Assembly (NCBI RefSeq): GCF_014960965.1 | Contig: NZ_CP063169.1 | Location: 2,017,581 to 2,081,580 of the forward strand | Direction: 5' to 3' | DNA: 64,000 nucleotides | Origin: Ruania alkalisoli | Lineage (GTDB): Bacteria; Actinomycetota; Actinomycetes; Actinomycetales; Beutenbergiaceae | Made by a program: the position numbers and the translations under genes | Notes under the pieces: generated by a model | Database searches by the model: none | Told to the model about the DNA's origin: nothing | Seen by the model: only the letters and a program-made list of their open reading frames with translations | Shown: positions 43,252 to 44,574 of the stretch, in pieces | Layout: each line of letters opens with the position of its first letter | How positions within the stretch are numbered: position 1 is the stretch's first letter

Positions 43252-43330
43252 GCCTCTGAGGTGCCGGGCCCGCCGTCCGACCGCGCGACAATGCGCGGAG
43301 GGCGGCGGAATGGCACTCCGCGAGGATCGA

Positions 43331-43367
43331 CATGTGGCCGGGTGCGCTCTCTGTACCCGGCCACATG
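43331..43367 (+). terminator. Perfect 13-bp hairpin after the sugar ABC operon
   Basis: CATGTGGCCGGGT pairs with ACCCGGCCACATG across an 11-base loop, 80 bases after the permease stop. It probably ends the ABC transcript and insulates the riboswitch. TACCCT at 43372-43377 right after it may be the -10 element of terC. Confidence 0.6.
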
Positions 43368-43381
43368 CTGCTACCCTTTGT

Positions 43382-43503
43382 CGAAGGAGGGGAGTACCCC
43401 TTAAGCGGTGACGTCGTCAGTACAGGCGAGCCAGTTCGTCTCGGCGTCATCGGCCCACCAGCGGTGGGGGAGACCTCCGGTGCACACCCAACTCACCGGA
43501 GGT
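43382..43503 (+). promoter_or_regulatory. yybP-ykoY Mn2+ riboswitch with Shine-Dalgarno switch
   Basis: Conserved elements GGGGAGTA near the 5' end (43390-43397) and GGGGGAGACC (43466-43475) match the L1 and L3 regions of the yybP-ykoY class. A stem CGGTGACG/CGTCATCG (43406-43413 with 43445-43452) and a hairpin CCCACC-agc-GGTGGG (43454-43468) fill the middle. GGAGG at 43386-43390 can pair with CCTCC at 43474-43478 (aptamer closing stem). The same CCTCC can pair instead, in a 10-bp stem, with the ribosome site GGAGG at 43498-43502. Binding of Mn2+ would free the ribosome site and turn on terC. Confidence 0.8.
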
Positions 43504-43509
43504 TTTCGT

Positions 43510-44574
43510 ATGGATGTCCCACTCTGGGCATGGCTGGCCACCGTTGGTCTCATCGTCGCAATGCTCGTCGTCGACTTCATGGGCCATGTGCGCAAAGCGC
43601 ACGCACCGTCGCTGAAGGAGGCGGGCCTGTGGTCGGCCGGCTACGTGCTGATCGCGCTCGTATTCGGTGGATTCGTCCTGCTCGAGTGGGGATCGGACTA
43701 CGGGCTCCAGTATTTCTCCGGCTACATCACGGAGAAGTCGCTCTCGGTGGACAACCTGTTCGTGTTCGTGCTGATCATGGCGAGCTTCCGCGTACCGCGG
43801 AAGTATCAGCAGAAGGTGCTGCTGATCGGGATCGTGATCGCGCTTGTGCTGCGCACCCTGTTCATCGTGCTCGGCGCCGCGATCGTCAATGAGTTTGCCT
43901 GGGTGTTCTACATCTTTGGGGCCTTCCTCATCTACACGGCCATCACGCAGGTGAGAAAGTCGGAGGAAGACGAGGAGTTCAAGGAGAACGCCGCATTGCG
44001 GCTGGTGCGCCGCGTCTTCCCGACGACGGAGGGCTACGTCGACGACAAGATGTTCACCCGCTCCTCCGGCCGGATGCACGTGACGCCGATGTTCATCGTG
44101 ATCCTCGCCATCGGCAGCGCCGACATCCTGTTCGCCGTCGACTCCATCCCGGCGATCTTCGGCCTCACCCAGGAGGTCTTCCTGATCTTCGCGGCCAACG
44201 CCTTCTCGCTGCTCGGCCTGCGGCAGCTGTACTTCCTCATCGACGGCCTGCTCGACCGCCTCGTTTACCTCAACTACGGACTGGCCGCGATCCTCGCTTT
44301 CATCGGGGCCAAGCTGGTGATCCACGCCCTGCACGAGAACGAGGTGCCGTTCATCAACGGTGGGCAGGAGTGGCACGTGATCCCGGAGGTCAACACCTAC
44401 GTCTCCCTGATCGTGATCGTCGGCATCCTGACAGTGACCACCGTGACCTCACTGCTGGCCGGTCGCAGGTCCGCTACGGCGGTCGAGGTCACGGCAGCAG
44501 CGGAAGAAGCGTCGACGGCGGTCGGCGAGGACGATGGCGAGCCCCGCTCGTCGTTGGGTGACCTGTACCGCTGA
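43510..44574 (+). CDS. TerC family membrane protein, probable Mn2+ exporter
   Basis: A 354-residue membrane protein with about eight to nine helices. Signature acidic clusters are EWGSDYGLQYFSGY, EKSLSVDNLFVF (about residues 78-89) and GSADILFAVDSIPA. The C-terminal 35 residues are acidic and cytosolic. TerC proteins of this Alx/MeeF type export manganese, often to supply or protect exoenzymes; direct control by a Mn2+ riboswitch here supports that. The start at ATG 43510 is fixed by GGAGG seven bases upstream, which the riboswitch can hide. Confidence 0.93.
   Translation: MDVPLWAWLATVGLIVAMLVVDFMGHVRKAHAPSLKEAGLWSAGYVLIALVFGGFVLLEWGSDYGLQYFSGYITEKSLSVDNLFVFVLIMASFRVPRKYQQKVLLIGIVIALVLRTLFIVLGAAIVNEFAWVFYIFGAFLIYTAITQVRKSEEDEEFKENAALRLVRRVFPTTEGYVDDKMFTRSSGRMHVTPMFIVILAIGSADILFAVDSIPAIFGLTQEVFLIFAANAFSLLGLRQLYFLIDGLLDRLVYLNYGLAAILAFIGAKLVIHALHENEVPFINGGQEWHVIPEVNTYVSLIVIVGILTVTTVTSLLAGRRSATAVEVTAAAEEASTAVGEDDGEPRSSLGDLYR

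Follow-up and report, generated by a model that had tools for sequence, protein, structure and literature searches.

Leaders of the yybP-ykoY class (RF00080), to which those of Lactococcus lactis yybP and of Escherichia coli mntP and alx belong, share an L1 core, GGGGAGUA, an L3 core, CGUCA, a closing helix P1 and a downstream gene of the TerC/Alx type. In crystal structures of the class, helices P1 to P4 meet in a four-way junction, and in the L. lactis member Mn2+, NusA and RNA polymerase all act on P1.1, which serves as the switch helix (PMC11087558). The pneumococcal mgtA member has a three-way junction, termed canonical in a review (PMC9495176). In E. coli mntP, the ribosome-binding site is hidden without Mn and freed with it (PMC11647493). 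In Corynebacterium glutamicum, an RF00080 element was predicted in the leader of terC (cg2157), with 49.13 bits under the 2013 Rfam (PMC3890552 Table 2), and RF00080 was also predicted as two mRNA leaders of this species (PMC4046766). As actinomycete predictions of this kind and the three-way junction of one class member are already in print, we assign the element described below to the known class.

That element lies ahead of terC in the window, i.e. the whole stretch of 64,000 nucleotides of Ruania alkalisoli DNA that was analysed. We read positions 43386–43503 as a Mn2+-sensing yybP-ykoY riboswitch with a translational ON platform for terC, at a probability of roughly 0.87; its ligand, direction and kinetics in R. 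alkalisoli are what we infer. Like the class members above, it has both cores, a closing P1 and a TerC/Alx-type gene downstream, and as in C. glutamicum the RF00080-class element precedes terC (PMC3890552). It differs from the class in having no P2 hairpin and an RF00080 score under the gathering cut-off. E. coli mntP has a hairpin at the place of P2, whereas the window leader has none, and the 5'-UTR of E. coli mntP measures 229 nt (PMC11647493) against ~125 nt here, as counted from the probable transcription start. The anti-Shine-Dalgarno (anti-SD) sequence of the window leader is the P1.1 3' strand itself. The elements of the leader are as follows.

43372–43377, + strand: putative -10 box TACCCT, assigned to this leader from the placement of TANNNT across leaders.
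43386–43390, + strand: P1.1 5' strand GGAGG, identical to the SD sequence (sequence, covariation, RNAalifold and a match of the covariance model R1, see below, at 43386–43478).
43391–43396, + strand: L1 core GGAGUA (all six columns invariant among the 45 aligned rows; demanded by the motif parse).
43397–43400, + strand: P1.2 5' strand CCCC, partner 43466–43469 (CG/UA compensatory changes).
43401–43405, + strand: short junction at the place of helix P2, too small for P2 (L1–CGUCA spacing in 85 leaders).
43406–43413, + strand: P3.1 5' strand, partner 43445–43452 (two-sided changes in eight of eight pairs, with 74.7% of cells paired).
43414–43419, + strand: L3 core UCGUCA (CGUCA invariant in 45 rows; demanded by the motif parse).
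43424–43441, + strand: P3.2 hairpin, AGGCGA/UCGUCU (MFE fold).
43445–43452, + strand: P3.1 3' strand (covariation in the 45-row alignment).
43454–43468, + strand: P4 hairpin, CCCACC/GGUGGG in the MFE fold.
Within 43454–43468, + strand: short form of P4, at least ACC/GGU if P1.2 forms (read from the sequence).
43466–43473, + strand: P1.2 3' strand GGGG and L1 3' strand GAGA (45-row alignment, covariation).
43474–43478, + strand: switch strand CCUCC, either P1.1 3' strand or anti-SD (sequence, compensatory changes, SD pairing test).
43473–43503, + strand: SD-sequestering hairpin of 10 bp with a loop of 11 nt (fold; covariation above that of shuffles for pairs 6, 8 and 9 among 41 leaders).
43498–43502, + strand: SD sequence GGAGG, 7 nt 5' of the start codon (sequence, SD location test).
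43510–44574, + strand: terC, ATG at 43510, coding for a TerC/Alx family metal homeostasis membrane protein (Pfam TerC, 2.6e-51; TIGR03718 'R_switched_Alx', 5.1e-113).

The original prediction had placed GGAGG at 43386–43390, CCTCC at 43474–43478 and the SD sequence GGAGG at 43498–43502, and all three are in the sequence, exact to the base. The two aptamer cores that it named, GGGGAGTA and GGGGGAGACC, occupy 43389–43396 and 43466–43475 as stated, and its 10-bp stem pairs 43473–43482 with 43494–43503 (one A-U pair plus CCUCCGGUG/CACCGGAGG). The L3 core UCGUCA (43414–43419) and helix P1.2, both absent from that prediction, are also present and conserved. The TerC protein of the window shares 98% identity with its Ruania rhizosphaerae counterpart. 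A GTG frame at 43408, inside the aptamer, was rejected as a gene start: GGAGG at 43386–43390 is 17 nt away, and TerC homology begins at 43510.

RF00080 aligned with the window leader over its full model length (positions 1–177), between 43374 and 43539, with 29.6 bits and E = 1.3e-6 (301-base search, 4227 families), under a gathering cut-off of 45. The covariance-model match on which the original prediction had staked its class assignment was thus obtained, though below the gathering score. At that score, Rfam gave nothing in the whole window and RF00080 nothing in the genome, and at E ≤ 10 the window leader is the sole RF00080 match in the 4.45-Mb, one-contig genome. A sub-cut-off score is weak evidence against membership, and we did not let the gathering score decide it because the leader of E. 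coli K-12 mntP also misses the cut-off (41.6 bits, 601-base search). The present model still matches C. glutamicum, presumably now under the cut-off, because the controls above cut-off stay at two once C. glutamicum drops out.

The other hallmarks of the class were then compared. The L1 core GGGGAGUA and the 3' core (G/A)AGACC adjoining P1 are present at 43389–43396 and 43466–43475, and GGAGUA and AGAC are invariant in 45 aligned rows, in part through selection by the parse. The L3 core CGUCA at 43415–43419 is flanked by the covarying strands of P3.1, and P1 is closed by complementary strands around the cores, with compensatory changes in both P1.1 and P1.2. TerC/Alx provides the downstream gene for Mn efflux or homeostasis. 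P2, and with it the four-way junction, is absent according to the RF00080 alignment and to the spacing in leaders; we treat this helix as optional rather than defining because the three-way junction of the pneumococcal member is termed canonical (PMC9495176). The yybP-ykoY assignment of the original prediction is thus backed by the cores, the sub-threshold RF00080 match, compensatory changes in both P1.1 and the SD hairpin, and the linkage to TerC/GDT1 genes.

Leaders of relatives were collected from 69 TerC loci in named genomes and from a search of 59 genomes, among them that of the window, 58 of which have a TerC relative at E ≤ 1e-40; this search supplied loci for no more than 30 matches. 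From 106 loci, four of them without a TerC match (L003, L005, L006 and L007), 113 distinct upstream stretches were cut, and L1, CGUCA and the 3' core with its following tail occur in order in 85 of them. The parse demanded GGAGUA, CGUCA and GG(A/G)*AGAC, so that their conservation is partly by selection, but it did not demand the helices; with stricter spacing, it took only 12 of the 113. The 28 unparsed stretches include second tandem TerC copies and motif-free loci (six from Clavibacter, L022 from Nocardia harenae and others), as well as L013, in which the motif is yet visible by eye.

Among these motif-selected leaders, in which related genera recur, P1.1 pairs 1–4 form in 85/85 and pair 5 in 76/85 (58/58 and 51/58, respectively, in the non-redundant set, n = 58). 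The exchanges in P1.1 include GGAGG/CCUCC, GAAGG/CCUUC, CAAGG/CCUUG, GUGAG/CUCGC and GGGCG/CGUCC (GC/AT/CG), and P1.2 shows CG/UA exchanges. We aligned 45 of the 58 non-redundant leaders, leaving out 11 with aptamers longer than 120 nt and, by hand, L066 and L069. RNAalifold, unaided, recovered P1.1 and three P1.2 pairs from these 45 leaders and nothing more, with seven of the eight pairs changed on both sides. For the structure that we named (P1.1, four-pair P1.2 and P3.1), 86.5% of cells are paired, versus 70.2% after shuffling and at most 61.8% with slid partners, and the covariation score is 0.512, versus 0.213 shuffled and 0.131–0.207 slid. The poorest pairing is that of P3.1, a quarter of whose cells are unpaired, probably in part because the alignment is loose in that region. 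The distance from GGAGUA to the first CGUCA is 12–20 nt in all 85 parsed leaders, where the parse allowed 8–45; the two shortest spacings, 12 and 13 nt (L066 and L069), stem from the pattern taking an earlier CGUCA. As this leaves no room for a P2 hairpin in the actinomycete form, P1, P3 and P4 would meet in a three-way junction.

The region 43360–43530 folds 3.1 standard deviations below shuffles (z = -3.14), none of 200 shuffles being as low, and the thermodynamic fold lengthens the SD stem to 14 bp (43469–43482 with 43494–43507). In relatives, the SD sequence was picked because it resembled GGAGG and lay 4–11 nt from an in-frame start, not for complementarity, so that its spacing is partly by construction. 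Placed in this independent manner, it was found in 48 of the 58 non-redundant leaders (71/85 overall) and in 41 of those 48 (62/71 overall) all five of its bases pair with the P1.1 3' strand, versus 16/4737 control 5-mers of the same aptamers (21/7041 overall). The full pairing is missing in the other seven leaders with an SD, and a GGAGG-like SD is missing from the searched place in 10 of the 58. The 41 leaders were chosen for forming the lower five pairs, so the upper hairpin, which was no part of the choice and has no role in P1, was scored separately. Its pairs 6, 8 and 9 covary, their observed pairing being reached by 0/2000 shuffles; pair 7 is equivocal (79/2000), and there is no signal for pairs 10 and 11. 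These counts ignore relatedness and are thus not probabilities. Each of the two competing helices has its own compensatory changes across actinomycetes, which supports the mutually exclusive use of CCUCC proposed originally.

Over 43384–43520, the SD-hiding fold has an energy of -66.2 kcal/mol, versus -51.3 with P1.1 forced and -49.1 with P1.1 and P1.2 forced. The nearest-neighbour model gives a probability of 0.0 both for P1.1 and for a free SD, the model taking no account of Mn2+ or of the L1–L3 contact; at equilibrium, the modelled RNA would therefore never leave the OFF state. The long form of P4 takes up G residues that P1.2 would also need. Because the OFF fold is favoured by 15–17 kcal/mol, there is room only for a kinetic, co-transcriptional switch, which amends the original prediction in this one respect. 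In the proposed mechanism, Mn2+ would dock L1 on L3 and keep P1.1 shut while the RNA is made. With P1.1 closed, CCUCC could not trap the SD that emerges ~20 nt later, and ribosomes would load and TerC be made. Without Mn2+, the more stable SD hairpin would displace the 5-bp P1.1 and translation would be OFF. The outcome would be set by the kinetics of transcription and ribosome loading rather than by equilibrium. The ON direction with Mn2+ is suggested by the geometry and by analogy with E. coli mntP.

The hairpin 43473–43503 and the UUUUC that follows it might instead form an intrinsic terminator, with transcriptional control of the kind that Firmicutes members use. The stem is indeed strong and GC-rich and is followed by UUUUCGU in the window; however, the start codon lies 7 nt past the SD of this hairpin, and at least five T in the eight bases 3' of the SD are present in just 8 of the 48 non-redundant leaders, TTTT in four. 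A terminator scan found none, a weak argument as it covers loops of 3–8 nt and the loop here has 11. We consider termination very unlikely; since the hairpin buries the SD and a T-run seldom follows, control is most likely translational, as originally predicted. That the whole is a chance secondary structure of a GC-rich leader would fit the base composition and the sub-cut-off Rfam score, but it is almost inconceivable given the low fold energy, the compensatory changes in three helices and in the hairpin, and the recurrence of the structure in many families.

A genuine aptamer fold could also serve another divalent metal, or Mn2+ as one among several. For the pneumococcal mgtA member, a review gives an affinity for Ca2+ that exceeds the one for Mn2+ (PMC9495176), and the aptamer here is devoid of P2; on the other hand, L1, L3 and the 3' core are those of the class, and a TerC or GDT1 gene lies downstream in 52 of 57 fetched loci. 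Both observations are still compatible with a wider metal range, although we find this quite unlikely. Rho, or RNA stability coupled to translation, might also contribute to control by Mn, the SD hairpin acting first: in E. coli, Rho terminates within the riboswitch region of mntP, with coupling restored under excess Mn (PMC11647493). Such a route, which we hold to be unlikely, would add to the SD mechanism, not replace it.

We assessed how far this predicted Mn2+-sensing translational switch may extend in actinomycetes with an aptamer covariance model, R1, built from the 45 aligned rows. In the 4.45-Mb genome of R. alkalisoli, R1 finds one strong place, with 79.3 bits and E = 2.4e-17, a score that is partly by construction as the rows include the leader of the window; the next two matches have E = 0.6 and 1.8. 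When genomes were drawn evenly from the class on whose leaders R1 had been trained, R1 hit 197 of 296 (E ≤ 0.001); in a draw of the phylum, it hit 47 of 198. RF00080 matches 8 of the 296, none above cut-off, under a stricter pre-filter than in the R1 search, so the two counts are not like for like (13 and 8 scored candidates per genome for R1 and RF00080, respectively, in searches of more than 40 genomes). With direct cmscan of 20 loci chosen from 166, including the motif-free L022, RF00080 matched at E ≤ 1 only at the window's locus. R1 gave no match at E ≤ 10 in a 12-kb stretch with E. coli mntP, which indicates that it is specific to the actinomycete form.

The 57 R1 loci that were fetched (L110 to L166) are the best matches of the class search and the matches of ten genomes chosen for at least three hits. 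Shortly downstream, 48 have a TerC relative, four have a gene of the GDT1 family (PF01169), which we take to be the same as UPF0016, and five have neither (L119, L141, L145, L150 and L166). According to a review, TerC and UPF0016 are families of Mn exporters (PMC9334652). The GDT1-family cation/proton antiporters preceded by the aptamer are those of L156, L159, L162 and L164, and P1 is GAAAG/CUUUC in L156 and L159. In L166, the R1 match precedes a gene for a PGPGW membrane protein, in L150 by eye possibly V-type ATPase-like subunits, and in L145 a gene other than TerC or GDT1. In L119, a 139-residue piece of the downstream protein has no Pfam family.

A promoter-like box also appears to be placed in a regular manner. 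A TANNNT box begins 10–18 nt 5' of P1 in 43 of the 58 non-redundant leaders, compared with a mean of 4.9 and a maximum of 13 in 500 shuffles, whereas a sigma-70 pattern scan found no promoter at the window's terC leader. Because the box has this position in most leaders, transcription likely starts at ~43383–43386, and the RNA would thus begin close to P1. In C. glutamicum, RNA-seq places the start of the terC transcript 6 nt inside the RF00080 prediction (PMC3890552 Table 2).

Mn2+ control is thus likely for terC here and for the TerC/GDT1 genes of many actinomycetes, whose leaders the present Rfam model mostly scores under its threshold. The RF00080 cut-off seems too strict for the actinomycete form, as for E. 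coli mntP. The short, clean design, in which the closing helix and the SD are rival partners of one 5-nt strand, recommends the leader for tests of kinetic translational switching and of compact Mn2+ sensors in actinomycetes. Among titles and the beginnings of abstracts in the open-licence literature, we found no description of the P2-less actinomycete form and no account of its extent, of the coevolution of the three strands or of the shortfall of RF00080.

The chances seem to us about even that actinomycetes have their own Mn2+ riboswitch subclass. It would combine a P2-less three-way junction, a P1 5' strand that copies the SD, a single anti-SD strand with two near-identical partners, and coevolution of P1, anti-SD and SD. 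It would be present in about two-thirds of the sampled class genomes (197/296), mostly unseen by RF00080, and some lineages that keep P1 with a hairpin leaving the SD uncovered would have a different output.

Those lineages are Nesterenkonia (L028, L030, L032, L033, L045 and L051), Pseudarthrobacter (L054 and L055) and Microbacterium (L040), in which P1 is kept and covaries and the hairpin, by eye, leaves the SD uncovered; the output logic of these loci may differ. In Micromonospora leaders (L036 to L039, L041 and L049), the switch strand starts ~82 nt ahead of the SD, versus 24 nt in the window.

A few observations concern the surroundings of the aptamer. Between the terC leader and the ABC-transporter permease gene that lies upstream of it, a perfect inverted repeat of 13 bp (43331–43367) is perhaps the terminator of the ABC-transporter operon. 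Three matches to microRNA families within 43322–43378 and a DUF3800-XI match at 43451–43478 were dismissed as due to chance or to this repeat. In L160 (1706–1846) and L154 (1253–1359), a second aptamer copy lies on the opposite strand ~110–140 nt from the first, and both copies, by eye, precede a small hydrophobic reading frame. Finally, tandem terC paralogues in the genus of the window each have their own riboswitch copy, at two places in each of L009, L010 and L086; L009 and L010 recur as L087 and L088.
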